This document shows positions 276 to 56,931 of a stretch of DNA of 64,000 bases, piece by piece. The stretch comes from Anoxybacter fermentans (lineage in GTDB: Bacteria; Bacillota; Halanaerobiia; DY22613). The stretch is from contig NZ_CP016379.1 of assembly GCF_003991135.1 (NCBI RefSeq), positions 2,232,001-2,296,000 of the forward strand. Direction: 5' to 3'. A program made the position numbers and the translations under genes. The notes below the pieces were generated by a model that saw only the letters and a program-made list of their open reading frames with translations, did no database searches and had not been told where the DNA came from. Numbering within the stretch: position 1 is the first letter of the stretch; each line of letters opens with the position of its first letter.

Positions 276-407
276 CTTTTAATATTTACTTTTGGGGGTT
301 ATAAAGGGACTTTTGGGACAGCCCCTCCTAATCTATTTAAAGTCTTTACATCCAATCCAATTTTCTCTATCTGTAGAAATTATATACCACATCGAGGATA
401 TTTTTGA

Positions 408-1991
408 TTAATCAGCTAACCAGATATCTTTCCAGTCATGAATAAATCCGAGCGGACTTGGTCTCAAACCGCGAACCTTTTCATTGTAGACTGCATTAGC
501 TTTGGAGTACATTAAGAAGATATATGGATAGTCATCATGAATCAGTTCCTGAATTCTATAGTAAATCTTCTTCCGCTTCTCAATATCCATTGTAGTTCTA
601 CCTTCTTCTAACAGTTTGTCAACTTCCGGGTTGCGGTAAGATACAAAGTTGAAACCGTCTTCAATCTGGCTGGAGTGGAAGAGTGAATAATCATCTGGGT
701 CAGGACCCATACCGGTCCAACCAAGTACACATGCATCAAAATCTCTCTTCAAAATTCTCTCAGTGATGAAAGTAGTCCAGGTCAATGCATCTACTTCAAG
801 TTTCACGCCAATCTTTTTCCAGAAATTCTGCACCAACTGCAGAACCTTTTCACGCGCAGCATTACCCTTGTTGGTAATCAGAGTAAAGGTAAGCTCCTTA
901 CCATCTTTTTCACGAATTCCATCACCATCAGTATCAACCCAACCCGCTTCTTCTAACAGCCTCTTAGCTTCATCAACATTATACTCATACTCAGGAATAT
1001 TTGGATTGTAAGCCCACTTAATTCCGGGAACTACATTAGAAGTAGCTGGTCTACCCTGACCAAAGTAAGCAACCTTAATAATTGCTGGCTTATAAATAGA
1101 GATAGCCAGAGCTTTTCTTACACGAACATCTTTAAAGGGGTCTCTTGCCATGTTAAAACCAATATAAGTATAACCAAAATCCCAGCGGCTCCACAGTTTC
1201 AAGCCCTTAGCAGGAGCTTCTCTCTCTAGACGTGCAACTTCTGCAGGTGGTACAGAAGCACTATCAATATCACCAGCTTCAGCAGCAGCTAACAGAGCAT
1301 TCTGGTCAGCTACTACCTTATAGATAACCTTGTCTAAATAAACACGTCCACGATGATAATCTTCTCTTGCAACAAAGGTTGCATGATCATCATGTACCCA
1401 CTCTTCTAATACGAATGGACCAGTACCAACCGGATTCTGGTTAGCAGGATTGGTATTAATATCAGTACCAGCAAAGATATGAGCTGGTATAATTCCCCTA
1501 GTCATAGTACCATATAAGAAATCGGGGAATGGATACTTTAAAGTAAACTGAATTGTATAGTCATCAATAATTTTAATACTTTCAATAGGTTCTACAAGAT
1601 AACCACGAACGGTATTTGTATTAGGATCACCAATGATTTCAAAGGTATATTTAACATCTTCTGCTGTAAACTCATGACCATCACTGAATTTTACGCCTTT
1701 CTTTAAGTGGAAGGTCCATACAAGATTATCTTCAGAACTTTCAAAACTTTCACATAATGGACCTGGAATCGGTTCCATGGTATCTGGGTCTATATCCAAA
1801 ACAGCCTCATATACCATACTTGCATATGAACTTGCAGAGTTAGTTGTTCCAAGAACAGGGTTAATAACTTCCGCATCACCAATAGTACCTAAAATCAAAG
1901 TACCACCGTACTTTGGCTCTTCAGCTAAAACACCAAAACTCAAACCTAAAACTACTAAAGTTGCTAAAAGAACTACTAACTTCTTCTTCAT
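408..1991 (-). CDS. Oligopeptide ABC transporter substrate-binding protein (SBP_bac_5 family)
   Basis: The 527-residue product has a Sec signal peptide (KKK, a hydrophobic run, likely cleavage after LA near residue 23) and no lipobox Cys, then KYGGTLILGT, the usual start of the mature SBP_bac_5 domain. Internal family motifs include VEDVKYTFE-like 'AEDVKYTFE', 'NPVGTGPFVLEEW' and 'RKALAISI'. It would capture oligopeptides or similar solutes outside the membrane and hand them to the DppBCDF complex encoded just upstream in transcription order. It is a near-identical paralogue of the protein at 6587-8170. It has its own promoter about 340 bases upstream, so it is a separately expressed extra receptor. 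Substrate unknown. Confidence 0.92.
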   Translation of the reverse strand: MKKKLVVLLATLVVLGLSFGVLAEEPKYGGTLILGTIGDAEVINPVLGTTNSASSYASMVYEAVLDIDPDTMEPIPGPLCESFESSEDNLVWTFHLKKGVKFSDGHEFTAEDVKYTFEIIGDPNTNTVRGYLVEPIESIKIIDDYTIQFTLKYPFPDFLYGTMTRGIIPAHIFAGTDINTNPANQNPVGTGPFVLEEWVHDDHATFVAREDYHRGRVYLDKVIYKVVADQNALLAAAEAGDIDSASVPPAEVARLEREAPAKGLKLWSRWDFGYTYIGFNMARDPFKDVRVRKALAISIYKPAIIKVAYFGQGRPATSNVVPGIKWAYNPNIPEYEYNVDEAKRLLEEAGWVDTDGDGIREKDGKELTFTLITNKGNAAREKVLQLVQNFWKKIGVKLEVDALTWTTFITERILKRDFDACVLGWTGMGPDPDDYSLFHSSQIEDGFNFVSYRNPEVDKLLEEGRTTMDIEKRKKIYYRIQELIHDDYPYIFLMYSKANAVYNEKVRGLRPSPLGFIHDWKDIWLAD

Positions 1992-2331
1992 TAAACAAAT
2001 CTCCTCCTTTAAAAAGTTATCTCCTCCTCATAAGGAAAAGCTACTACTTTACTTTTCGCTACTCTACTTCTCACTACTCACCTCCCTTACAAAGATAAAT
2101 ATATGATAAATAACCCATTTATATTCCATATTTAGTTAATAACTAGCTTATATTAGTCATTCTTCCATAATAAAAAGATATATTAAGTAGTTGATAAGCG
2201 TCCCACCCTTGATAAATTAATTGATACATAAAGATATGGTATGTATAAGTCCTTCTTTACCTACTCAACCATTTACCTTACTTCCTATATTTTTGGGCTT
2301 ACTCCTCTTTTTTCATATACTATTTAGACAT

Positions 2332-2360
2332 ATTATATTATAACTTTTTTTTGATGTCAA
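2332..2360 (-). promoter_or_regulatory. Sigma-A promoter for the 408-1991 receptor gene
   Basis: On the minus strand TTGACA (2360-2355) and TATAAT (2337-2332) are separated by 17 bp, a full consensus match. The leader to the ATG is about 335 nt and contains a purine-rich GGGAGGTGAGTAGTGAG stretch near 2072-2087 resembling an extra ribosome site. I see no gene or known riboswitch in 1992-2331, nor anything in 2361-2526. Confidence 0.8.
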
Positions 2361-2526
2361 GATCAAATTACCTATAATCACATATTTTATCTGCTAATAT
2401 TATGCGACATTTAATAATAAATTTTCTATTTCATTAGTAAAGTACCTGCATAATTTAATAGAACAAATGGTCTTTGGTCATATCAAGGATGAGATTTATT
2501 TCCAGCTGCATAATTTCCCTGGCATT

Positions 2527-2562
2527 AAAAAAAGTCAATGGAATAATTCCATTGACTTTTTA
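2527..2562 (-). terminator. Rho-independent terminator of importer operon 1
   Basis: AAGTCAATGGAA (2532-2543) pairs with TTCCATTGACTT (2547-2558) around a 3-nt loop, with a T run on the minus strand. It lies just after dppF and is duplicated at 11415-11448. Confidence 0.9.
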
Positions 2563-2581
2563 AATAATATGATTTTTTCAT

Positions 2582-3556
2582 TCATCTCTCTAAAAGATGG
2601 CAAGCTACAAAGTGTTCACCACCATAATCCTTAAATACCGGATCCTCCACTTTACAAATATCCATACAATACTTACATCTGGTATGGAAGTGACATCCAC
2701 TCGGCGGATTCACCGGACTTGGTACATCACCTTCCAGAATAATCCGCTCACGCTTAATTGTTGGATCCGGAATCGGAATCGCACTCAACAATGCCTGAGT
2801 GTACGGATGCTGAGGATTGCGATAAAGCTCTTCTTTATCTGCCAATTCTACAATCTTTCCTAAATACATTACTGCTACACGATTACTTATATGCTTGACT
2901 ACACTTAAATCATGGGCAATAAAAAGATAGGTTAAACCAAACTCCTCTTGCAAATCCTGCATCAGGTTAATTACCTGTGCCTGAATAGATACATCCAATG
3001 CCGATACCGGCTCATCACATATAATCAAACTGGGATCCACCGCTAATGCACGGGCTATACCAATACGCTGACGCTGACCTCCAGAAAACTCATGGGGATA
3101 TCTTCTCATATGCTGGGCTGTCAAACCTACTCTCTCCAACAATTCAATTACTCTTTCTTCTTTCTCTTTTCCTTTGGCCAATCCATGAATCTCCATCGCT
3201 TCACCTATAATGTTACCTACTGTCATCCGCGGATTCAATGACGCATATGGATCCTGGAAAATAATCTGCATCTCACGACGAAGTGCCCGCATCTCCTCTT
3301 TATCCAGCTCTAATACATTCTTATCCCTAAACCAAACCTCACCAGCTGTAGCTTCTAAAAGCCTTAAAACCACTCGACCTGTAGTAGACTTTCCACAGCC
3401 AGACTCTCCTACTAATCCCAGAGTCTCTCCTTCCCGAATGAAAAAGTTAACTCCATCAACAGCCTTTACCGCTCCAATTGTCCTACCCAAAATCCCACCT
3501 TTTATTGGAAAATGCTTCACCAAATTCTTAACTTCTAATAAAATATCTCCTGCCAT
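2582..3556 (-). CDS. dppF: Oligopeptide ABC transporter ATPase, DppF/OppF type
   Basis: A nucleotide-binding subunit that would power peptide import with its partner DppD. It shows Walker [10 protein letters not shown], the Q-loop region [16 protein letters not shown] typical of OppF, signature [17 protein letters not shown] and Walker [13 protein letters not shown]. The C-terminus carries the four-Cys OppF-type motif around [15 protein letters not shown], associated with an Fe-S cluster or metal in this family. ATG at 3556 is chosen because AGGAGG lies 8 nt ahead; an in-frame GTG at 3565 is too close to that site. The gene is nearly identical over its whole length to 11697-12671. Confidence 0.93.
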
Positions 3557-3568
3557 CTCTTCCACCTC

Positions 3569-4588
3569 CTATGCACCCTGTTGGGCACCATGCTCTTTCT
3601 CAAATTCAACTACAGCATCCGGATACCAGCACCGAACTGAATGACCTGGGCTTAGCTCCTCAATCTCAGGTTCACTCTCACGACATTTGTCAGTTGCAAA
3701 ACGACAGCGTGGATGGAATTTACATCCTTCCGGTAAATGCAGTGGGTTTGGTACTACACCTTCAATAGTTAACAGCCTTTTTACCTGACTGTCTAATTTT
3801 GGAATCGACTTCAAAAGACCCCAGGTATATGGATGCCGTGGATTACCAAAAATAGTATTAACGTCTGAATACTCAACAACTTTACCCGCATACATAACTG
3901 CAACACGGTCACATACCTCTGCCACAACACCTAAGTCATGGGTAATCAGCATAATAGCTGTATTAAATTCTTCCTTCAGTTCCTTCATCAACTCCAAAAT
4001 CTGAGCCTGAATGGTCACATCCAAAGCTGTTGTAGGCTCGTCAGCTATCAAAAGTTTTGGATTACAGGATAAAGCCATCGCAATCATAACACGCTGTCTC
4101 ATTCCACCGGAAAGCTGGTGAGGATATTCATAAACCCGCTTCTCCGGAGAAGGTATCCCTACTTTTTTTAACATTTCTACAGCCCGTTCCATCGCCTCTT
4201 TTTTGCTGACTTTCTGATGCAGAATGATTGCCTCTGCAATCTGATCACCTACTGTATAAACAGGGTTTAAGGAGGTCATTGGTTCCTGGAAAATCATAGA
4301 AATATCGTTACCTCTAATCTTCCGCATTTCAGCTTCAGACTTGGTTAATAAATCCTCACCATCAAACCAAATATGACCTCCTACAATCTTTCCCGGAGGA
4401 TTTGGGATAAGTCTCATAATGGAAAGAGAGGTAACGCTTTTACCGCAGCCAGATTCACCAACTACCCCTAAAGTCTCTCCTTTATAAATCTCAAAATTTA
4501 CTCCATCAATAGCTCTAACTACTCCATCCTCGGTATAAAAATATGTTTTTAAATCTTCCAATTTCAATAAGAGCTCTTTTGACATCAT
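3569..4588 (-). CDS. dppD: Oligopeptide ABC transporter ATPase, DppD/OppD type
   Basis: Partner ATPase of the adjacent dppF. Visible motifs: Walker [10 protein letters not shown], the Q-loop [16 protein letters not shown], signature [19 protein letters not shown], Walker [13 protein letters not shown], and the C-terminal [14 protein letters not shown] cysteine cluster. 339 residues is normal for the family. AAAGGAGG precedes the ATG. Together with dppF it is part of a block repeated almost base for base at 11697-13703; the two copies diverge only in the first few dozen codons and beyond ([13 protein letters not shown] here, [13 protein letters not shown] there). Confidence 0.93.
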
Positions 4589-4621
4589 TATACCTCCTTT
4601 GCCATCCCTGGCCTCAATTCA

Positions 4622-5527
4622 TTATTGTTTTAATTTAGGATCCAGGGCATCTCTTAAACCATCGCCCAACAGGTTGAACGCTAAAACAGTTATAAAAATC
4701 ATTAATCCTGGGAAAATTGCAACCCATGGAGTTTCTACCATTACAGTAATTGACTGAGCTTCACGTAAAATACCGCCCCAACTTACAGTCCCCTGCTTTA
4801 CTCCAAGACCGAGGAAGCTCAATACCGCCTCTGTTAAGATTGTACTACCAATACGTAAAGTTGAAGCAACAATAATAGGAGCCATGGAGTTAGGTAAAAG
4901 GTGTTTAAAGATAATTCTAGCATCATTAGCTCCAAGAGCACGAGCTCCTTCAACAAATTCTCTCTCCTTCAGTGAGAGGAATTGACCGCGAACAAGACGG
5001 GTTACACCCATCCAACTGGTTAAACCAATGATAACAATAACCTTATATATACCATTACCGAATAAAGCTACAATGGTCAGAATAAGGAAGAAAGATGGGA
5101 AACAAAGAGCAATATCGGTAAAACGCATGATAATACTGTCAACGATTCCACCATAATAACCGGCAATCGCTCCCAAAAGAGTACCTATCGACACAGCTAT
5201 TAACATCGAAACAATTCCTACAGTCAAAGAAACTCGTGAACCGTAAATAATCAGTGTCAATAGATCACGCCCCATAGCATCAGTACCCATCCAGTGTTGT
5301 TTACTGGGGGGCCCCCATAAGTTCTCAAAATCCATCTCATCCAATTCATATGGAGCAATATATGGTGCAAAAATAGCCATTAAATACAGGAAAATAATAA
5401 TCCAGAGACTTATGACAGCTAATTTATTTTTCTTTAACCTCTTCCAGGTTATTTGAAGCATTGTCTCATTTTCAGTTTTCAAACCGTGTTTTTGTGCTGA
5501 TTGTGCCAGATTAGCTTTCTCAGTCAT
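4622..5527 (-). CDS. dppC: Oligopeptide ABC transporter permease, DppC type
   Basis: An inner-membrane subunit with about six transmembrane segments. The N-terminal OppC_N region (WKRLKKNKLAVISLWIIIF) is followed by the HWMGTDAMGRDLLT motif and the permease EAA loop around EGARALGANDARIIFKHLLPN, which docks on the ATPases. Ends in the family's usual [14 protein letters not shown]. It sits between dppB and dppD with short gaps, so one operon. Confidence 0.92.
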   Translation of the reverse strand: MTEKANLAQSAQKHGLKTENETMLQITWKRLKKNKLAVISLWIIIFLYLMAIFAPYIAPYELDEMDFENLWGPPSKQHWMGTDAMGRDLLTLIIYGSRVSLTVGIVSMLIAVSIGTLLGAIAGYYGGIVDSIIMRFTDIALCFPSFFLILTIVALFGNGIYKVIVIIGLTSWMGVTRLVRGQFLSLKEREFVEGARALGANDARIIFKHLLPNSMAPIIVASTLRIGSTILTEAVLSFLGLGVKQGTVSWGGILREAQSITVMVETPWVAIFPGLMIFITVLAFNLLGDGLRDALDPKLKQ

Positions 5528-6567: not shown

Positions 6568-6586
6568 AATTTTATATATCATTTGA

Positions 6587-8170
6587 CTAATCAGCTAACC
6601 AGATATCTTTCCAGTCATGAATAAATCCGAGCGGACTTGGTCTCAAACCGCGAACCTTTTCATTGAAGACTGCATTAGCTTTGGAGTACATTAAGAAGAT
6701 ATATGGATAGTCATCATGAATTAATTCCTGAATTCTATAGTAGATCTTCTTCCGCTTCTCAATATCCATTGTAGTTCTACCTTCTTCTAACAGTTTGTCA
6801 ACTTCCGGGTTGCGGTAAGATACAAAGTTGAAACCGTCTTCAATCTGGCTGGAGTGGAAGAGTGAATAATCATCTGGGTCAGGACCCATACCGGTCCAAC
6901 CAAGTACACATGCATCAAAATCTCTCTTCAAAATTCTCTCAGTGATGAAAGTAGTCCAGGTCAATGCATCTACTTCAAGTTTCACACCAATCTTTTTCCA
7001 GAAATTCTGCGCTAACTGCAGAACTTTTTCACGTGAAGCATTACCTTTGTTGGTAATCAGAGTAAAGGTAAGCTCCTTACCATCTTTTTCACGAATTCCA
7101 TCACCATCAGTATCAACCCAACCCGCTTCTTCTAACAGCCTCTTAGCTTCATCAACATTATACTCATACTCAGGAATATTTGGATTGTAAGCCCACTTAA
7201 TTCCGGGAACTACATTAGAAGTAGCTGGTCTACCCTGACCAAAGTAAGCAACCTTAACAATTGCTGGCTTATAAATAGAGATAGCCAGAGCTTTTCTTAC
7301 ACGAACATCTTTAAAGATTTCTCTTTCCATGTTAAAACCAATATAAGTATAACCAAAGTCCCAACGGCTCCACAGTTTCAAGCCCTTAGCAGGAGCTTCT
7401 CTCTCTAGACGTGCAACTTCTGCAGGTGGTACAGAAGCACGATCAATGTCACCAGCTTCAGCAGCAGCTAACAGAGCATTCTGGTCAGCTACTACCTTAT
7501 AGATAACCTTGTCTAAATAAACACGTCCACGATGATAATCTTCTCTTGCAACAAAGGTTGCATGATCATCATGTACCCACTCTTCTAATACGAATGGACC
7601 AGTACCAACCGGATTCTGGTTAGCAGGATTGGTATTAATATCAGTACCAGCAAAGATATGAGCTGGTATAATTTCCATAGTCATAGTACCAGTTAAGAAA
7701 TCGGGGAATGGATACTTTAAAGTAAACTGAATTGTATAGTCATCAATAATTTTAATACTTTCAATAGGTTCTACAAGATAAGCACGAACGGTATTTGTAT
7801 TAGGATCACCAATGATTTCAAAGGTATATTTAACATCTTCTGCTGTAAACTCATGACCATCACTGAATTTTACGCCTTTCTTTAAGTGGAAAGTCCATAC
7901 AAGATTATCCTCAGAACTTTCAAAGCTTTCACATAATGGACCTGGAATCGGTTCCATGGTATCTGGGTCTATATCCAAAACAGCCTCATATACCATATCT
8001 GCATATTCATCTGCAGAGTCAGTTGTTCCAAGAACAGGGTTGATAACTTCCGCATCACCAATAGTACCTAAAATCAAGGTACCACCGTACTTTGGTTCTT
8101 CAGCTACAACGCCAAAGCTCAAACCTAAAACTACTAAAGTTACTAAAAGAACTACTAACGTCCTCTTCAT
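6587..8170 (-). CDS. Oligopeptide ABC transporter substrate-binding protein (SBP_bac_5 family)
   Basis: First gene of importer operon 1. ATG at 8170 (MKRTLVVLLVTLVVLG) is chosen because AGGAGGAG lies upstream inside a longer in-frame extension beginning at 8194. Signal peptide, then EEPKYGGTLILGTIGDAEV. The protein is almost identical to the 408-1991 product, differing by scattered substitutions (for example ADEYADMVYEA versus ASSYASMVYEA, and EREIFKDVRV versus ARDPFKDVRV), some near the likely ligand-contact segments. It has no lipobox, so it is either retained by another means or secreted to the cell surface. Confidence 0.93.
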   Translation of the reverse strand: MKRTLVVLLVTLVVLGLSFGVVAEEPKYGGTLILGTIGDAEVINPVLGTTDSADEYADMVYEAVLDIDPDTMEPIPGPLCESFESSEDNLVWTFHLKKGVKFSDGHEFTAEDVKYTFEIIGDPNTNTVRAYLVEPIESIKIIDDYTIQFTLKYPFPDFLTGTMTMEIIPAHIFAGTDINTNPANQNPVGTGPFVLEEWVHDDHATFVAREDYHRGRVYLDKVIYKVVADQNALLAAAEAGDIDRASVPPAEVARLEREAPAKGLKLWSRWDFGYTYIGFNMEREIFKDVRVRKALAISIYKPAIVKVAYFGQGRPATSNVVPGIKWAYNPNIPEYEYNVDEAKRLLEEAGWVDTDGDGIREKDGKELTFTLITNKGNASREKVLQLAQNFWKKIGVKLEVDALTWTTFITERILKRDFDACVLGWTGMGPDPDDYSLFHSSQIEDGFNFVSYRNPEVDKLLEEGRTTMDIEKRKKIYYRIQELIHDDYPYIFLMYSKANAVFNEKVRGLRPSPLGFIHDWKDIWLAD

Positions 8171-11414: not shown

Positions 11415-11448
11415 AAAAAAGTCAATGGAATAATTCCATTGACTTTTT
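11415..11448 (-). terminator. Rho-independent terminator of importer operon 2
   Basis: The same GTCAATGGAA..TTCCATTGAC hairpin with T run as at 2527-2562. Here it is separated from dppF by an inserted palindromic element (copy A). Confidence 0.9.
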
Positions 11449-11457
11449 AAGTAATAT

Positions 11458-11678
11458 GATTTTACTGCAAAAAGCTAATTTTTCGCTTCAAAAGAAATTT
11501 TTCGAACCATCTAAAGTTCGATCTCAGTTGAAATAAGGTACACTAATCAATGGGCCCTCCTGGCCCTTGATTAGCTCATCACATCCTGTGATGAGGCCTT
11601 ATTTCTCCTTCGATCTCACTAAGATGGTTTAACGAAAAATTTCTATGGCACTCAAAATTAGCTTTTTGCAGTTTAATT
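11458..11678 (+). repeat. Palindromic mobile repeat, copy A (MITE-like)
   Basis: 221 bp with inverted ends GATTTTACTGCAAAAAGC and GCTTTTTGCAGTTTAATT. It is flanked by GTAATAT (11451-11457) and ATAATAT (11679-11685), a 7-bp duplication with one change. The paralogous locus at 2564-2571 has a single ATAATAT followed directly by GATTTTTTC, that is, the empty site. The centre holds two hairpins: AATCAATGGGCC with GGCCCTTGATT, and CTCATCAC with GTGATGAG. Confidence 0.9.
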
Positions 11679-11696
11679 ATAATATGATTTTTTCAT

Positions 11697-12671
11697 TTAT
11701 CTCTCTAAAAGATGACAAGCTACAAAGTGTTCACCACCATAATCCTTAAATACCGGATCCTCCACTTTACAAATATCCATACAATACTTACATCTGGTAT
11801 GGAAGTGACATCCACTCGGTGGATTCACCGGACTTGGTACATCACCTTCCAAAATAATCCGCTCACGCTTAATTGTTGGATCCGGAATCGGAATCGCACT
11901 CAACAATGCCTGAGTGTACGGATGCTGAGGATTGCGATAAAGCTCTTCTTTATCTGCCAATTCTACAATCTTTCCTAAATACATTACTGCTACACGATTA
12001 CTTATATGCTTGACTACACTTAAATCATGGGCAATAAAAAGATAGGTTAAACCAAACTCCTCTTGCAAATCCTGCATCAGGTTAATTACCTGTGCCTGAA
12101 TAGATACATCCAATGCTGATACCGGCTCATCACATATAATCAAACTGGGATCCACCGCTAATGCACGGGCTATACCAATACGCTGACGCTGACCTCCAGA
12201 AAACTCATGGGGATATCTTCTCATATGCTGGGCTGTCAAACCTACTGTCTCCAACAGTTCAATTACTCTTTCTTCTTTCTCTTTTCCTCTGGCCAGTCCA
12301 TGAATCTCCATCGCTTCACCTATAATGTTACCTACTGTCATCCGCGGATTCAATGACGCATATGGATCCTGGAAAATAATCTGCATCTCACGACGAAGTG
12401 CCCGCATCTCCTCTTTACCCAGCTCTAATACATTCTTATCCCTAAACCAAACCTCACCAGCTGTAGCTTCTAAAAGCCTCAAAATTACTCGACCTGTAGT
12501 AGACTTTCCACAGCCAGACTCTCCTACTAATCCCAGAGTCTCTCCTTCCCGAATGAAAAAGTTAACTCCATCAACAGCCTTTACCGCTCCAATTGTCCTA
12601 CCCAAAATCCCACCTTTTATTGGAAAATGCTTCACCAAATTCTTAACTTCTAATAAAATATCTCCTGCCAT
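11697..12671 (-). CDS. dppF: Oligopeptide ABC transporter ATPase, DppF/OppF type (duplicate)
   Basis: Near-identical to 2582-3556; only a handful of substitutions are visible (VILRLL versus VVLRLL, LGKEE versus LDKEE, GLARGKE versus GLAKGKE, LLETVG versus LLERVG). It has the same Walker [10 protein letters not shown], signature SGGQRQR, Walker [10 protein letters not shown] and C-terminal cysteine motif. It completes importer operon 2, whose permeases and receptor are clearly different from those of operon 1, so identity here points to recent duplication or gene conversion confined to the ATPase block. Confidence 0.93.
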
Positions 12672-12683
12672 CTCTTCCACCTC

Positions 12684-13703
12684 CTATGCACCCTGTTGGG
12701 CACCATGCTCTTTCTCAAATTCAACTACAGCATCCGGATACCAGCACCGAACTGAATGACCTGGGCTTAGCTCCTCAATCTCAGGTTCACTTTCACGACA
12801 CTTGTCAGTTGCAAAACGACAGCGTGGATGGAATTTACATCCTTCCGGTAAATGCAATGGGTTTGGTACTACACCTTCAATAGTTAACAGCCTTTTTACC
12901 TGACTGTCTAATTTTGGAATCGACTTCAAAAGACCCCAGGTATATGGATGCCGTGGATTACCAAAAATAGTATTAACGTCTGAATACTCAACAACTTTAC
13001 CCGCATACATAACTGCAACACGGTCACATACCTCTGCCACAACACCTAAGTCATGGGTAATCAGCATAATAGCTGTATTAAATTCTTCCTTCAGTTCCTT
13101 CATCAACTCCAAAATCTGAGCCTGAATGGTCACATCCAAAGCTGTTGTAGGCTCGTCAGCTATCAAAAGTTTTGGATTACAGGATAAAGCCATCGCAATC
13201 ATAACACGCTGTCTCATTCCACCGGAAAGCTGGTGAGGATATTCATAAACCCGCTTCTCCGGAGAAGGTATCCCTACTTTTTTTAACATTTCTACAGCCT
13301 GTTCCATCGCCTCTTTTTTGCTGACTTTCTGATGCAGAATGATTGCCTCTGCAATCTGATCACCTACTGTATAAACAGGATTTAAGGAGGTCATTGGTTC
13401 CTGGAAAATCATAGAAATATCGTTACCTCTAATCTTCCGCATTTCAGCTTCAGACTTGGTTAATAAATCCTCACCGTCAAACCAAATATGACCTCCTACA
13501 ATCTTTCCCGGAGGGTTTGGGATAAGTCTCATAATGGAAAGAGAGGTAACGCTTTTACCGCAGCCAGATTCACCAACTACCCCTAAAGTCTCTCCTTTAT
13601 AAATCTCAAAATTTACTCCGTCAACAGCTTTAACTACTCCATCCTCGGTATAAAAATATGTTTTTAAATTATCAAGTTGCAGAAGTAATTCCTTCTCTTT
13701 CAA
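12684..13703 (-). CDS. dppD: Oligopeptide ABC transporter ATPase, DppD/OppD type (duplicate)
   Basis: Near-identical to 3569-4588 from about residue 15 onward, including silent positions. Walker [48 protein letters not shown] and the [14 protein letters not shown] cysteine cluster are all present. The first codons differ ([17 protein letters not shown]) and the start codon is TTG after GGGGGAGG. It is the fourth gene of importer operon 2. Confidence 0.93.
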
Positions 13704-26676: not shown

Positions 26677-26901
26677 GATTTTACTGCAAAAATCTAATTT
26701 TTCGCTTCATAAAGAAATTTTTCGAACCATCTAAAAGTTCGATTTTAGTAGAAATAAAGCACACTAATCATCAATGGGTTCTTATGACCTTTGATTAACT
26801 CATCACACCCTGTAACGAGGCCTTATTTCTCCTTCAATCTACTAAGAGAGTTTAACGAAAAATTTCAATAGCACTCAAAATTAGCTTTTTGCAGTTTAAT
26901 C
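26677..26901 (+). repeat. Palindromic mobile repeat, copy B
   Basis: 225 bp from GATTTTACTGC to GCAGTTTAATC. Flanks ATATACT (26670-26676) and ACATACT (26902-26908) match at 6 of 7 positions. The right duplication includes the first base of the exporter gene's stop codon, so insertion was flush with the end of the gene. Both internal hairpins are present but degenerate. Confidence 0.88.
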
Positions 26902-30598: not shown

Positions 30599-30805
30599 GA
30601 TTTTATTACAAAAAGCTATTTTTTTTGCTTCAGATAGAAATTTTTTGAACCAACTAATATTCGATTTCAATCAAAATAAGGCACACTAATCAATAGGTCC
30701 TTATGACCATCACATCCTCATATGAGGCTATTCTTTTCAATCTCACTAAAATGGTTAAACGAAAAATTTCTATAACACTCAAAATTAGCTTTTTACAGTG
30801 TAATC
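30599..30805 (+). repeat. Palindromic mobile repeat, copy C
   Basis: 207 bp, GATTTTATTAC to TACAGTGTAATC, the most degraded full-size copy. Flanks ATATAAA (30592-30598) and ATATAAT (30806-30812) agree at 6 of 7. It lies immediately beyond the terminator of importer operon 3. Confidence 0.82.
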
Positions 30806-30813
30806 ATATAATA

Positions 30814-30845
30814 TAAAAAAAGGCCCAACTTAACTGTTGGACCTT
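30814..30845 (-). terminator. Terminator of importer operon 3
   Basis: GGCCCAAC (30822-30829) pairs with GTTGGACC (30836-30843) with one mismatch, followed on the minus strand by seven T. Directly after the dppF stop codon. Confidence 0.85.
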
Positions 30846-30852
30846 GAATTTC

Positions 30853-31818
30853 TCAAACCAAATGACATGCAACAAAGTGTTGATTTCCCTTATCTTTAAA
30901 TACTGGTTCTTCTTCTTTGCATATATCTTTTGCATAGGGGCATCTGGTATGAAACCGACATCCACCAGGTGGGTTAATTGGACTTGGTACATCTCCCTCT
31001 AAAAGAATTCTTTCTCGCTTAATAGTTGGATCCGGGATAGGAATAGCAGATAAAAGGGCCTGGGTGTAGGGATGTTTCGGATTATCATAAAGCTCGTTCG
31101 TCTCTGCCAGTTCTACTATTTTACCCAGATACATAACTGCAACTCGATCACTGATGTGTTTAACAACACTCAAATCGTGGGCAATAAAAAGGTAAGTTAG
31201 GCCCAATTTTTGTTGCAGATCCTGCATTAAGTTAATCACCTGGGCCTGAATTGATACATCCAGCGCAGATACAGGCTCATCACAAATGATCAGTTTTGGA
31301 TTTACTGCTAAGGCCCGGGCAATACCAATCCGCTGCCTTTGTCCACCACTAAATTCGTGCGGATAACGGTTAGCATGAGCTCTGGTCAAACCAACCTGTT
31401 CTAAAAGTTGTTGAACCCGTTCTTCTTTTTCTTGCTTTGTTTTAGCTAACTTGTGAATCTCAATGGCTTCACCTATAATATTACCTACCGTCATCCGCGG
31501 ATTCAAAGAAGCATATGGGTCTTGAAAAATAATCTGCATTTTTCTGCGCATTTCACGCATCTGCTTTTTATTAAAAGTTAAAATATTTTTTCCCTCAAAT
31601 ATTACTTCTCCTTCAGTAGGTTCAATTAACCGTAGGATCAGACGACCAGTAGTAGATTTACCACATCCGGATTCACCAACCATTCCCAGAGTCTCCCCAT
31701 CTTTAATATAAAAACTTACACCATCTACCGCTTTAACAGAACCCACCTGTTTACCAAAAATACCACCCTTAATCGGGAAATGCTTCTTTAGATTTTTTAC
31801 TTCAAGTAATTTTTTCAT
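30853..31818 (-). CDS. dppF: Oligopeptide ABC transporter ATPase, DppF/OppF type
   Basis: Walker [26 protein letters not shown], signature [15 protein letters not shown], Walker [10 protein letters not shown], and C-terminal [15 protein letters not shown] cysteines. About 70-80 percent similar by eye to the two duplicated copies but clearly diverged. ATG at 31818 has GGAGG 8 nt upstream; an in-frame GTG at 31827 is too near. It overlaps the preceding dppD by 17 nt. Confidence 0.92.
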
Positions 31819-32812
31819 CAGCTTCACCTCCCAGGCCCCCTATTTGATCATAAAACCAGCATCTGACAAAATGTCCTGTATCAATTTCTTTAATTTCCGG
31901 CTCTTTTTCAAAGCATAGATCTTTAGCATAAGGACAGCGATTATTAAATTTGCAGCCTTTTGGAAGATTTAATGGATTTGGTACAACTCCTTTTATCGGT
32001 TCTAGACGCTTCTTCCCACCATTTAATTTGGGTATCGAATTTAAAAGTCCAATAGTATAAGGATGTCTAGGTGAAAGAAAGATACGCTTAACATCAGTGT
32101 ATTCTACAACTTTACCTGAATACATTACAGCTACCCGATCACAAACCTCAGCAACTACACCCAGATCATGCGTAATAAGCATAATTGCTGTATTAAATTC
32201 ATCGCGTAACTGTTTCATTAGTTCCAGAATCTGGGCCTGAATAGTTACATCCAGAGCAGTGGTTGGCTCATCTGCAATAAGCAGAGACGGATTACAGGAA
32301 AGTGCCATAGCAATCATTACTCTCTGTCTCATTCCACCCGAAAGTTGGTGTGGGTATTCATAAACCCGCTTTTCCGGCGCTGGAATACCTACCTTTCTAA
32401 GCATTTCCACTGCCCGTTCCATCGCTTCTTTTTTTGAAACTTTCTGGTGTAGTATCACTGCTTCAGCTATTTGATCACCTACAGTATAAACAGGATTTAA
32501 AGAAGTCATGGGTTCCTGGAAAATCATACTGATCTCATTACCTCGAATTTTACGCATCTCTTCTTCAGATTTTTGCACCAGATCTTTTCCTTTAAAGAGA
32601 ATCTGACCGCCAACAATTTTTCCGGGAGGATTGGGTACCAGACGCATAATGGATATGGAGGTTACACTCTTTCCACATCCTGATTCACCTACAATACCCA
32701 GGGTTTCACCTTCATAAATCTCAAAATTTACTCCATCTACTGCTTTAACTACTCCATCATCAACAAAGAAATAAGTTTTTAAATCTTTTACTTCAAGAAT
32801 TGGCTGTCTCAT
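31802..32812 (-). CDS. dppD: Oligopeptide ABC transporter ATPase, DppD/OppD type
   Basis: Walker [26 protein letters not shown], signature [15 protein letters not shown], Walker [10 protein letters not shown], and the C-terminal [14 protein letters not shown] cysteine cluster. 336 residues, normal length. It partners with the following dppF, and both serve the DppB/DppC permease of operon 3. Confidence 0.92.
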
Positions 32813-32828
32813 ACTGCTTCCTCCTTTC

Positions 32829-33683
32829 CTACTGCTTCAACCTTGGGTCTAAAGCATCACGTAACCCATCTCCCAAAAGATTAAGACCCAAAATAGTTAT
32901 CATAATAGCTAAACCGGGATAAATTGTCAACCATGTTTTGCTGGTCACATAGGTCCGTCCCATAGCTAACATTAGTCCCCAACTAGGTTCGGGAGGTTGT
33001 GCACCCAGACCTAAGAAACTCAAACCCGCCTCAGAGAGAATGGCACCTGCCACTCCCAAAGTTGCTGTTACAATTACAGGAGCAAGACAATTAGGAATAA
33101 TATGCTTTAATATAATTCTTAAATCATTGCCGCCTAATGCGCGAATAGCTTCAATATATTCCTGTTCTTTTAACTGGAGTACCTGTCCTCGAACAATTCT
33201 GGCCAATCCAGGCCAACTAACCGCACCTAGAGCAATAAAAACATTATTTAAACCGGGCCCTAAAGTAGCCATAATAGCAATGGCAAAAAGTAAAGATGGG
33301 AAAGCAAAAAAGATATTTATCAGATAAGAAATCACATCATCTACTCTGCCACCGTAATAACCAGCTAAAGCCCCCATAATAATCCCAATTACTAAAGAAA
33401 TAGCCTGAGTGATTATTCCTACCCGTAAAGAGATCCGGGCTCCATAGAGAAGACGACTGAATTGATCACGGCCCAATTGGTCTGTTCCTAAAATATGACC
33501 ATCTTCCATGGGAGCTTTTAAAGCTCTACTCAAATCCACTTCATATGGGTCATATGGTGCAATAATTGGTGCTAACAGTGCCACAATGATTAAACCTACC
33601 GTAATAAAAAGTCCCAAAATAGCCATTTTATTTTTGCGTAAACGTTTCCAGACTTCATTGCCTTGTATAGTATTTTGACTCAT
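32829..33683 (-). CDS. dppC: Oligopeptide ABC transporter permease, DppC type
   Basis: ATG at 33683 ([19 protein letters not shown]) is chosen because GGAGGAGG lies 6 nt upstream inside a longer in-frame reading from 33707. It has six membrane segments, the [16 protein letters not shown] motif, the EAA loop [21 protein letters not shown] and the [14 protein letters not shown] end. Overlap of the longer reading with dppB disappears with this start. Confidence 0.92.
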
Positions 33684-33699
33684 GGTTCTCCTCCTCCCT

Positions 33700-34629
33700 C
33701 TACTCATATCGAATCCGTGGATCTAGCCATCCATAGGATAAGTCAACAAGCAGATTAATGACGATAAAGATTACAGCTAAAAATAATACTGTTCCCTGAA
33801 TCATAGGAAAATCTCTGTATTGTACTGCATCAACTGCTAGACGACCTATTCCAGGCCAGGAGAAGGTAGTTTCTGTCAATACCGTACCACCCAAAAGATA
33901 GCCTAATTGAGTACCGATAACAGTAATAACTGGAATTAGAGCATTTCTTAAAGCGTGTTTAAAGATAACCACACGTTCACTCAAACCCTTAGCACGGGCA
34001 GTACGGATATAATCCATCCTGACAACTTCCATCAAACTGGAACGGGTCATTCTAGCAATCCGGGCAGCCTGCATTGTACCCAGTGAAATTGCTGGTAAAA
34101 TTAAATACCTAATAGAACCACCACCATAACCGCCTACCGGTAACCAATTCAATTTAACTGCAAAAACAACAATTAAGAGTAAACCCAAATAGAAAACAGG
34201 AATAGAAATCCCCAATAAAGCCAAGCCCATAAAGAGATTATCCCAAATAGAATAGGGTTTTGTCGCTGAGATAATTCCTGCTATAATTCCAATCACAATA
34301 GCTACACCCATAGCACTTAATCCAAGGCGGAGGGTTGCAGGAAATCTTTCTGTAATACTATCAATTACAGGTCTTCTAGTCTTAAAAGACCTCCCCAAAT
34401 CACCTTTAAAGATTTGAGTAATAAATTTTATATATTGAATAGTTAAAGGCTGATCTAAGCCCAACTCATGTCGAATCATTGCAACCGTTTCTTCATCAGC
34501 ATTTTGCCCCATAATCATTCTGACCGGATCTCCCGGCACAAAAACAAAAGTCAAAAGAAAGGTAATCGTTGCTACACCTATCAAGATTGGAACAGCCATT
34601 ATCGAACGCCGAATAATATAAGTCATCAT
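33700..34629 (-). CDS. dppB: Oligopeptide ABC transporter permease, DppB type
   Basis: MTYIIRRSIMAVPILIGVAT, the VPGDPVRM motif, about six membrane segments, the EAA loop ARAKGLSERVVIFKHALRNAL, and the ending WLDPRIRYE. It is the first gene after the receptor, behind a hairpin and a repeat insertion that extend the gap to 308 bases. Confidence 0.92.
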   Translation of the reverse strand: MMTYIIRRSIMAVPILIGVATITFLLTFVFVPGDPVRMIMGQNADEETVAMIRHELGLDQPLTIQYIKFITQIFKGDLGRSFKTRRPVIDSITERFPATLRLGLSAMGVAIVIGIIAGIISATKPYSIWDNLFMGLALLGISIPVFYLGLLLIVVFAVKLNWLPVGGYGGGSIRYLILPAISLGTMQAARIARMTRSSLMEVVRMDYIRTARAKGLSERVVIFKHALRNALIPVITVIGTQLGYLLGGTVLTETTFSWPGIGRLAVDAVQYRDFPMIQGTVLFLAVIFIVINLLVDLSYGWLDPRIRYE

Positions 34630-34714: not shown

Positions 34715-34934
34715 GATTATACTGCAAAAAACTAATTTTGAGTAACATAGAAATTTTTCGATAAACCATCTTAGCAAAATTGAAATCGAAATAAGGCCTC
34801 ATCACAGAATGTGATGGACTAATCATGGGACAGGACGACCCTTTGATTAGTGTGGCCTTATTTCGACTGAAATCGAGCTTTAGATGTTCGAAAAAGTTCT
34901 CCTTAAGCAAAAAACTAGCTTTTCGCAGTTTAAC
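34715..34934 (-). repeat. Palindromic mobile repeat, copy D (reverse orientation)
   Basis: 220 bp, GATTATACTGC to GCAGTTTAAC. Flanks AATTTAT (34708-34714) and AATTTAC (34935-34941) match at 6 of 7. The right duplication covers the receptor's stop codon (34938-34940), so the element lies between that stop and the operon hairpin. A 70-codon open frame inside it is an artefact of the palindrome. Confidence 0.88.
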
Positions 34935-34937
34935 AAT

Positions 34938-36757: not shown

Positions 36758-36920
36758 GATTAAACTGCAAAAAACTAATTTTGAGCGATATTAAAATTTT
36801 TCGTTAAACCATCTTAGTGAGATTTAAGGAGAAATAAAGTCTCATCACAGAATGTGATGAACTAATTCTAATTCGAAAAATTTCTTTATGAAGCGAAAAA
36901 TTTGCTTTTTGCAGTTTAAC
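36758..36920 (-). repeat. Palindromic mobile repeat, copy E (shortened, reverse orientation)
   Basis: 163 bp, GATTAAACTGC to GCAGTTTAAC. It keeps the outer stem and the CTCATCACAGAATGTGATGA hairpin but has lost the GGGCCC-type hairpin. Flanks ATAGTAA and CAATAAG do not give a clear 7-bp duplication. Confidence 0.8.
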
Positions 36921-36947
36921 CAATAAGGTTTTCTCTTAAAAATGAAA

Positions 36948-38759: not shown

Positions 38760-38882
38760 GATTAAACTGCAAAAAGCTAATTTTGAGCATCATAGAAATT
38801 TTTCATTTACGGCTGAAATCGAACTTTAGATGGTTCGAAAAATTTCTTTTGAAGCGAAAAATTAGCTTTTTGCAGTAAAATC
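38760..38882 (-). repeat. Palindromic mobile repeat, copy F (short, reverse orientation)
   Basis: 123 bp, GATTAAACTGC to GCAGTAAAATC, with a perfect 7-bp duplication GTTAAAT on both sides (38753-38759 and 38883-38889). The two-hairpin head is missing, leaving a simple long hairpin. It lies between the cstA promoter and start codon, so it would be transcribed into the cstA leader. Confidence 0.9.
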
Positions 38883-44396: not shown

Positions 44397-44562
44397 GATT
44401 AAACTGCAAAAAGCTAATTTTGAACGACATAGAAATTTTTCGCCAAATCATCTTAGCGAAATTTCCGACGAAATAAGGCCTCATTGATTAGGAAGCCTTA
44501 TTTCGGCAGAAATCGAGCTTTAGATTCTCAAGAAGCGAAAAATTAGCTTTTTACAGTTTAAC
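44397..44562 (-). repeat. Palindromic mobile repeat, copy G (shortened head, reverse orientation)
   Basis: 166 bp, GATTAAACTGC to ACAGTTTAAC. Flanks AAAATAT (44390-44396) and CAAATAT (44563-44569) match at 6 of 7. The central head has collapsed to a single short hairpin, GGCCTCATTGATTAGGAAGCC, between intact AATAAGG/CCTTATT arms. Confidence 0.85.
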
Positions 44563-44651
44563 CAAATATATTTTGGGTAAAGAGGATTAGATCACAAACA
44601 AGATTATTTATTCTTGAAGGTTCATCAGAATTAGAATCAAACAAAAAAGAA

Positions 44652-44989: not shown

Positions 44990-45113
44990 AATACTACTGC
45001 AAAAAGCTAATTTTTCGCTTCAAAAGAAATTTTTCGAACTATCTAAAGTTTAGTTTTAGTCGTAAACGAAAAATTTCTATGACGCTCAAAATTAGCTTTT
45101 TGCAGTTTAATCT
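44990..45113 (+). repeat. Palindromic mobile repeat, copy H (short)
   Basis: About 124 bp. The right end GCAGTTTAATC is clear; the left end is eroded (AATACTACTGC). The hairpin head is absent, as in copy F but in the opposite orientation. No target duplication is visible. Confidence 0.8.
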
Positions 45114-47181: not shown

Positions 47182-47402
47182 GGTTAAACTGCAAAAAACT
47201 AATTTTTCGCTTCTTGAGAAATTTTTCAAATCATCTAAAGCTCCATTTCCGCCGAAATAAGGCTTTCTAATCAAAGGGCTCTCCTGGCCCTTGATTAGCT
47301 CATCACCTCCTGTAATGAGGCCTTATTTCGTCGGAAATCTCGCTAAGATGATTTGACAAAAAATTTCTATGTCGTTCAAAATTAGCTTTTTGCAGTATAA
47401 TC
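47182..47402 (+). repeat. Palindromic mobile repeat, copy I
   Basis: 221 bp, GGTTAAACTGC to GCAGTATAATC. Flanks ATAAAAT (47175-47181) and ATAAAAC (47403-47409) match at 6 of 7. It belongs to the subtype with ATCATC / GATGAT and TTTCCGCCG / CGTCGGAAA in its outer stem. Confidence 0.9.
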
Positions 47403-48982: not shown

Positions 48983-49182
48983 GGTTAAACTGCAAAAAGT
49001 TAATTTTTCACTTCTTGAGAAATTTCTCGAATCATCTAAAGCTCGATTTCCGCCGAAATAAGGCTTCCTGACTCAAAGGAGCCTCCTGGTCCTTGATTAG
49101 CTCATCACCTCCTGTGATGAGGCCTTATTTCGTCGGAAATCTCGTGAAGATTTGGCGAAAAATTTCTATGCCGTTTATAATC
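48983..49182 (+). repeat. Palindromic mobile repeat, copy J (right end deleted internally)
   Basis: 200 bp. The left end GGTTAAACTGC is intact; the right arm has lost the AAAATTAGCTTTTTGCA segment but keeps GTTTATAATC. The target duplication CTTTAAT is perfect on both sides (48976-48982 and 49183-49189). Same stem subtype as copies I and M. Confidence 0.88.
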
Positions 49183-49205
49183 CTTTAATAAGTTATGATT
49201 TAAGT

Positions 49206-49904: not shown

Positions 49905-50177
49905 ATGAGTAAATATTACTTAATGATGTCAAATGGGGCCATAAAAACTATTAATCATTTTCTTTCAATCAATGAAGACGAACATAACTTATTAATCAAT
50001 ACAGAATTTGATCAATTCAGTGTTTGCAAAAAAGATGTGGTGATTCATGGCGATGAGAAGTATTGGACAAAAGTTTTAGAATTACTCAAATGTCTTGACA
50101 AAATCATTCAAAAAAGAGTAAATAAAATTACAACTAAAGCAACTTTTTTAGGTTTTTTTCTTGGACGCTTAAGTTAG
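49905..50177 (+). CDS. Small protein of unknown function
   Basis: 90 residues, MSKYYLMMSNGAIKTINHFL at the start, Lys/Asp-rich, with a hydrophobic end (ATFLGFFLGRLS). AAGGAGG lies 9 nt upstream and a full-consensus promoter drives it, so it is probably real and well expressed. I do not recognise a family. The stop codon lies within the eroded left end of repeat copy K, so the C-terminus may have been altered by the insertion. Confidence 0.65.
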   Translation: MSKYYLMMSNGAIKTINHFLSINEDEHNLLINTEFDQFSVCKKDVVIHGDEKYWTKVLELLKCLDKIIQKRVNKITTKATFLGFFLGRLS

Positions 50178-50395
50178 TTTCTGCAAAAAGCTAACTTTTC
50201 GCTTCATAAAGAAACTTTTCGAACCATCTAAAGTTCGATTTCAGTCAAAATAAGGCACACTAATCAATGGATCCTCCTGACCCTTGATTAGCTCATCACA
50301 TCCTGTGATGAGGACTTATTTCGACTGAAATCTCACTAAGATGGTTTAACGAAAAATTTCTATGGCACTCAAAATTAGCTTTTTGTAATTTAATC
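50174..50395 (+). repeat. Palindromic mobile repeat, copy K
   Basis: About 222 bp, left end eroded (TTAGTTTCTGC), right end TAATTTAATC. Both head hairpins (CTAATCAATGGATCC.. and CTCATCACATCCTGTGATGAG) are intact. No clear target duplication, consistent with rearrangement at the left end. Confidence 0.85.
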
Positions 50396-53548: not shown

Positions 53549-53767
53549 GATTAAACTGCAAAAAGCAAATTTTTCACTTCAAAAGAAATTTTTCGAACCA
53601 TCTAAAGTTCGATTTCAGTCGAAATAAGATACACTAATCAATGGGCCCTCCTGGCCCTTGATTAGCTCATCAATCCTCATATGAGGCCTTATTTCGACTG
53701 AAATCTCACTAAGATGGTTTAACAAAAAATTTCTATGACACTCAAAATTAGCTTTTTGCAGTAAATA
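53549..53767 (+). repeat. Palindromic mobile repeat, copy L
   Basis: About 219 bp, GATTAAACTGC to GCAGTAAAT. Its stem TTTCAGTCGAAATAAG / CTTATTTCGACTGAAA is perfectly paired. One hairpin of the head is shortened (CTCATCAATCCTCATATGAG). It lies 2 bp from the polA stop codon. A 7-bp duplication is uncertain (AAATTTT versus AAATATT, depending on the right boundary). Confidence 0.85.
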
Positions 53768-53768
53768 T

Positions 53769-56707: not shown

Positions 56708-56931
56708 GATTTTACTGCAAAAAGCTAATTTTTCGCTTCAAAAGAAATTTTTCGAATCATCTAAAGCTCGATTTCCGCCGAAATAAGGCTTCCTAATCCA
56801 AGGGCCCTCCTGGCCCTTGATTAGCTCATCATCTCCTCTAATGAGGCCTTATTTTGTCGGAAATCTCGCTAAGATGATTTGGCAAAAAATTTCTATGCTT
56901 CTTAAAATTAGCTTTTTAGCTTTTTGTAATA
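56708..56931 (+). repeat. Palindromic mobile repeat, copy M
   Basis: About 224 bp, left end GATTTTACTGC clear, right end blurred by a duplicated GCTTTTTAGCTTTTTG. Stem subtype with ATCATC / GATGAT. Both head hairpins are present. The stop codon of the decayed MFS gene lies in its right end. Confidence 0.83.

Follow-up and report, generated by a model that had tools for sequence, protein, structure and literature searches.

A very successful miniature transposon of Anoxybacter fermentans with IS1182-like ends and an interior resembling the TwoAYGGAY RNA

TwoAYGGAY (RF01731) is classified as cis-regulatory by Rfam, while it is described as a probable non-cis-regulatory RNA in the available part of PMC2864571 and as a predicted CsrA-binding RNA in that of PMC4333381; in these portions of the TwoAYGGAY literature, transposition is not mentioned. 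Commonly, RNAs acting as sponges for CsrA or RsmA, such as CsrB, RsmY and RsmZ, possess paired hairpins with GGA loops and are encoded by one or a few genes. Among mobile elements, ISMac2-derived MITEs of Methanosarcina acetivorans are short and non-autonomous, with ends resembling an IS1182-family transposon and target duplications of 4 or 0 (PMC3852290). A literature search for MITEs together with CsrA returned no earlier link. Here, we describe an element of Anoxybacter fermentans (genome G000, a single contig of 3.56 Mb) which is very probably a MITE moved in trans by an IS1182-family transposase, with an interior formed by a TwoAYGGAY-type RNA structure. The element is likewise short and non-autonomous with IS1182-like ends; unlike the ISMac2 MITEs, it duplicates 6-8 bp of its target, numbers about 600 copies and contains a conserved RNA-like core. 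With CsrB, RsmY and RsmZ it shares the paired GGA-loop hairpins, but it occurs as hundreds of mobile copies.

The analysed window is a stretch of 64,000 nucleotides (G000:C1:2232001-2296000). It harbors several paralogous oligo/dipeptide transporter gene sets (403-4700, 6582-6881, 11415-13703 and 30829-34600), two of which are near-identical over dppD/dppF. Copy A of the element and its surroundings are composed as follows.

2564-2570, no strand: empty target site ATAATAT, downstream of the second dppF copy
11451-11457, no strand: left target duplication GTAATAT, one substitution compared to ATAATAT
11458-11678, minus strand: MITE copy A, 221 bp
11458-11482, plus strand: left terminal inverted repeat of copy A, GATTTTACTGCAAAAAGCTAATTTT
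11499-11633, minus strand: structured core of copy A, a three-way junction
11543-11574, minus strand: hairpin 2 of copy A, loop AGGAG
11575-11595, minus strand: hairpin 1 of copy A, loop AGGAU (CUCAUCACAGGAUGUGAUGAG)
11654-11678, minus strand: right terminal inverted repeat of copy A, AATTAAACTGCAAAAAGCTAATTTT on the minus strand
11679-11685, no strand: right target duplication ATAATAT
11697-12680, minus strand: oligo/dipeptide ABC transporter ATPase (DppF/OppF), just upstream of copy A in its own reading direction

According to the first-pass annotation, one of the two dppF 3' regions produced by duplication carries an insertion here, for which the other provides an exact empty site; both the sequences and the empty site are present where it had placed them. 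The empty site at 2564-2579 consists of ATAATAT followed by GATTTTTTC, and upon removal of the element and one duplicate the flanks of copy A match it without gaps at 93 of 96 bases; the proposed insertion is supported. As GATTTT follows ATAATAT in the empty site and also forms the left end of copy A, the dppF locus alone fits a duplication of either 7 or 13 bp, the latter of which is excluded by the duplications of other copies. No open reading frame of at least 90 aa is present within the 221 bp of copy A, in line with the lack of coding capacity and the size below about 600 bp that characterize a MITE. The AGGA loops are on the minus strand, which corresponds to TwoAYGGAY in RNA sense and is co-directional with dppF. 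The closest named relative of this dppF that was found, at 90% identity, belongs to a Halothermothrix MAG, which places the host near Halanaerobiales. In this MAG, the dppF 3' region is without the element, and no copy was found elsewhere in its genome.

A profile of the element was searched against 1.264 Mb, made up of the window and 60 pieces of 20 kb distributed across the genome, and yielded 222 copies, which extrapolates to about 625 genome-wide or 3.1% of bases. Similarly, 1160 genomic occurrences of the end pattern ACTGCAAAAAGCTAATTTT (up to three mismatches) compare with a single one of its reversed control. Among the 167 copies with both ends, perfect duplications of 6, 7, 8 and 9 bp were observed in 36, 20, 3 and 1 cases, compared to 1.7, 0.5, 0.07 and 0.02 expected when flanks are re-paired among copies; those of 5 bp occur at chance level (1 versus 1.2), and about half of the two-ended copies are without a readable duplication. 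The target duplication is 6-8 bp in length, with a mode of 6 bp (often ATTTAT-like). The annotation had held that a 7-bp duplication explains all copies and had proposed to score 7-bp flanking repeats genome-wide as a test, the outcome of which is an overwhelming excess; what stands is a short AT-rich duplication, and what falls is its fixed length. A duplication of strictly 7 bp, consistent as it is with the abundance of perfect 7-mers, is highly improbable and refuted as a strict rule, as 6-mers without a seventh match are commoner and the intact IS relatives described below show 6, 7 and 8 bp. The search for further empty sites, which had likewise been suggested, was also successful: in addition to that in the window, four could be aligned (L130:11201, L114:14731, L141:9779 and L088:2878), part of which are copies of another repeat family lacking the insertion. 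The insertion represents a genuine miniature transposon that was once very successful, and its past mobility is directly apparent from the duplications and empty sites.

The other copies within the window are listed below. Their flanks read as previously given, with the exception that the letters around copy G, although correct, constitute a perfect 6-mer rather than a 7-bp duplication.

26677-26901, minus strand: copy B, ATATACT/ACATACT, 6/7 matching
30599-30805, minus strand: copy C, ATATAAA/ATATAAT, 6/7 matching
34715-34935, plus strand: copy D
36758-36921, plus strand: copy with internal deletion, without duplication
38760-38882, plus strand: core-less copy F, perfect 7-bp duplication (7/7; oriented ATTTAAC, GTTAAAT on the plus strand)
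44397-44563, plus strand: copy G, partial core, perfect 6-bp duplication (oriented ATATTT)
44990-45112, minus strand: core-less copy without duplication
47182-47402, minus strand: copy I, ATAAAAT/ATAAAAC, 6/7 matching
48983-49183, minus strand: copy J, CTTTAAT/CTTTAAT, perfect 7/7, right end without its inner part
50174-50395, minus strand: copy with intact core
53549-53768, minus strand: copy with intact core
56708-56928, minus strand: copy with intact core and degenerate right end

Two classes of deletion derivatives, one of 133-136 bp in which the core is missing and one of 181-189 bp in which one hairpin is missing, are each present in multiple copies with common breakpoints and target duplications of their own. 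As derivatives without the core have also spread, the terminal repeats appear to be sufficient for mobility. With regard to gene context, 29 copies of the sample reside in tandem gene arrangements 0-10 bp past the upstream stop codon; among the 33 copies located at most 10 bp after a stop codon, the AGGA strand is sense in 22 and antisense in 11. At G000:C1:1943-1982 kb (L019, L020, L022, L023, L025, L027, L029 and L030), units of about 2.1 kb are arranged in tandem, each comprising an RHS-core-like (NPLKYVDPSG) open frame, a small frame of 118 aa and one MITE copy, all in the same orientation in the two units read; the repeats may promote expansion of the array via recombination.

A 778-bp element with MITE-like ends (L116:9028-9806) led to a 1650-bp element (L220:790-2439), the ends of which, GATTATACTGCAAAAA and GATTAAACTGCAAAAA, conform to the end pattern GATTAWACTGCAAAAA of the MITE without a mismatch, and which encodes broken pieces of an IS1182-family transposase (NF033551, E 8e-20; PF13751). 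No intact copy of this partner transposase was found in the A. fermentans genome, and intact relatives were identified in sister genera (L226 and L241 in G045, L228 in G052 and L230 in G054). The G045 transposase has 530 aa (NF033551, E 1e-50), and the frame of L228 is split in two. The IS ends are GATTGCACTGCGAAAAGTC (also given as GATTGCACTGCGAAAAG) in G045, with duplications ATAGAT and ATTTTAAT, GATTACACTGCGAAAAA in G052, with duplication AACTAT, and GATTGTACCACAAAAAC in G054, with duplication ATATTAT; accordingly, duplication lengths are 6 bp for L226, L227 and L228, 7 bp for L230 and 8 bp for L241. A MITE adjoining the IS of G054 ends in ...CCACAAAAAGG, and those of G003 and G005 end in ...CCACAAAAAG and have readable duplications of 6-7 bp (ATAATAT in L066, ATTTAT in L061, ATAAAT in L071 and ATATTAT in L062). 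Thus, IS and MITE ends appear to vary together, lineage by lineage. The MITE has its ends in common with the IS and shows like target duplications, and its putative autonomous partner is an IS1182-family element which is broken in A. fermentans. This genome also contains intact IS1182-like elements in abundance (521 aa frame, ends GGGGCTGTCCC), which are not the partner of the MITE. An intact IS with these ends, a DDE_Tnp_1 transposase of 518 aa and about 19 similar copies is located at L097:595-2391, and at L098 an IS of the same ends is inserted within a MITE copy. Two further candidates for a full-length element were rejected, one near L107:7672-8649 (a PpiC-type protein) and one near L079:8222-9424 (an ISL3 transposase).

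Folded as single-stranded RNA, both strands of copy A far outperform shuffled sequences (z -15.7 and -14.7). When 24 cores from A. fermentans and four other genera were aligned and a curated structure of 43 pairs was applied, base pairing proved to be conserved: 91% of cells are paired, compared to 39% at most after sliding of the partners, and 27 of the 43 pairs are altered on both sides, compared to at most 11 after sliding. RNAalifold alone missed hairpin 1 due to gaps in the alignment, and the curated structure was counted instead. At its tip, the core forms a three-way junction that bears two hairpins, and AGGAY is the predominant loop sequence (loops being mostly AGGAU/AGGAC/AGGAG). The score of the copy A core against the covariance model R1, which was built from this element family only, is 156 bits, a match by construction as copy A is among the 24 sequences of the model.

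The conserved helix and two adjacent GGA-loop hairpins ending a long stem are common to this core and RF01731, and the models match reciprocally on the same strand. In contrast to RF01731, two literal AYGGAY terminal loops are absent, the present loops being mostly AGGAY, and the RNA makes up no more than the tip of an element that has terminal repeats and is flanked by target duplications. The best A. fermentans copy (G000:C1:3463418-3463572) reaches 51.7 bits with the RF01731 model (gathering cut-off 43); among the matches listed for this genome there is one further copy at 27.7 bits, copy A was not found, and Rfam at gathering threshold gave no matches in the window. Most A. fermentans copies fall below the cut-off because the AGGAY loop is one base shorter than AYGGAY. 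As the loops are mostly AGGAU, AGGAC or AGGAG, we refer to the element as a related variant of RF01731 and not as a strict member. Conversely, R1 produced 12 matches in 11 of 29 loci for which RF01731 had been the sole means of detection; the best E is 2.3e-7, and with one exception these matches coincide with those of RF01731 in position and strand. Of 398 genomes from the phylum, 50 contain RF01731, often in multiple copies; the sequences flanking the 168-nt Rfam model are complementary in 28 of 28 foreign TwoAYGGAY loci (above the 95% level of mismatched pairs), and in G308 the TwoAYGGAY elements start with CAGACTGAAGACAAA, like an IS1182 transposase locus in the same genome. TwoAYGGAY thus looks like the tip of IS1182-type MITEs, suggesting that this widespread 'RNA family' is cargo of mobile DNA. 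Sub-threshold matches of the reverse complement to the Bacillaceae-1 RNA (RF01690, cut-off 35) occur at L071:1564-1625 (27.5 bits) and L061:1576-1637 (24.1 bits) on the strand opposite to TwoAYGGAY, which fits CsrA-like motifs in the reverse complement described in the available part of the literature; this resemblance is only a lead.

A. fermentans also carries a second MITE family, about 231 bp long and with the ends CTTGTTGACAAA and CTTTTTCAACAGCCTG, of which the sample yielded 17 pieces (about 48 when extrapolated to the genome), with copies at L144:6384-6615, L131:1296-1525, L117:9112-9341 and 12410-12639, and others. Its core consists of two hairpins with CCAGGAKGG loops capping a long stem, and a sequence-model match to the first family was not detectable. 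Copies are often located between two similar hairpin/terminator sequences, as though the target hairpin had been duplicated; that at L117:9112-9341 resides inside hairpin 1 of a first-family copy, with the hairpin CTCATCACTTCCTGTGATGAG on both sides.

A csrA gene is located at C1:2465407 of the A. fermentans genome, and the core of the first family has the paired GGA hairpin loops of sponge RNAs. Based on loop sequence and pairing, we infer that transcripts of the element may bind CsrA and that this binding may have kept the core through evolution, a role favored by the fact that the junction has been retained in genera whose ends differ. A rather plausible alternative, if somewhat short of an even chance, is that of a decaying IS1182 MITE, a palindrome without RNA function, in which the likeness to TwoAYGGAY reflects MITE descent and the Rfam family is a mis-annotated MITE. 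In the sample, the orientation of copies with respect to genes is not significantly biased towards sense (81 sense versus 66 antisense, p 0.25), and the second AGGA loop is less conserved in A. fermentans copies than the average paired position (0.78-0.88 versus 0.92). Both observations argue against a general maintenance of individual copies as RNAs and conform to such decay, and so does the success of the core-less derivatives, which also counts against a CsrA-binding role. Decay is, however, difficult to reconcile with compensatory changes that keep junction and loops across genera despite the differing ends, or with two CCAGGAKGG-loop hairpins in a second MITE family unrelated in sequence.

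The structure might instead act at the level of DNA, with the hairpins as a folded single-stranded substrate needed in transposition, as the long perfect palindrome and the conserved junction would allow; since core-less subfamilies spread with duplications of their own, we consider this very unlikely. Hardly credible is a dispersed small-RNA gene or cis-regulatory RNA multiplied by recombination instead of transposition: it would account for a structured, conserved sequence that matches RF01731 and for copies often directly following stop codons, but is already contradicted by the 6-8-bp duplications, to which precise ends, empty sites and ends like those of an IS1182 element are added.

For the MITE moved in trans, which we prefer, the following scenario is proposed. 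An IS1182-family DDE transposase would recognize the ends GATTWWACTGCAAAAA... and insert the element at AT-rich sites (preferably ATNNAT), duplicating 6-8 bp, with the terminal repeats alone presumably sufficing for movement. Copy A would have entered one dppF 3' region after the dppF duplication, between stop codon and terminator hairpin. The interior is predicted to form a TwoAYGGAY-type RNA, in which a long imperfect stem leads to a three-way junction with two AGGA-loop hairpins, and these paired loops would represent the kind of paired site that is bound by CsrA.

The target-duplication rule for this MITE is thereby corrected and a transposase family probably responsible for it is named. 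The first-pass annotation had included neither this transposase nor the TwoAYGGAY core, which we regard as the more interesting parts. An orphan RNA family proposed to bind CsrA would thus be linked to transposition, which would explain its many scattered copies, and A. fermentans represents an extreme case with about 600 copies and about 3% of the genome. It might tentatively be speculated, albeit with more doubt than confidence, that RNAs with two GGA hairpins, including TwoAYGGAY, are cargo of IS1182-type MITEs across Bacillota, and that transcripts from the many copies titrate or exploit CsrA as a decoy. If true, a family of mobile elements would carry a decoy for the global regulator CsrA of its host.
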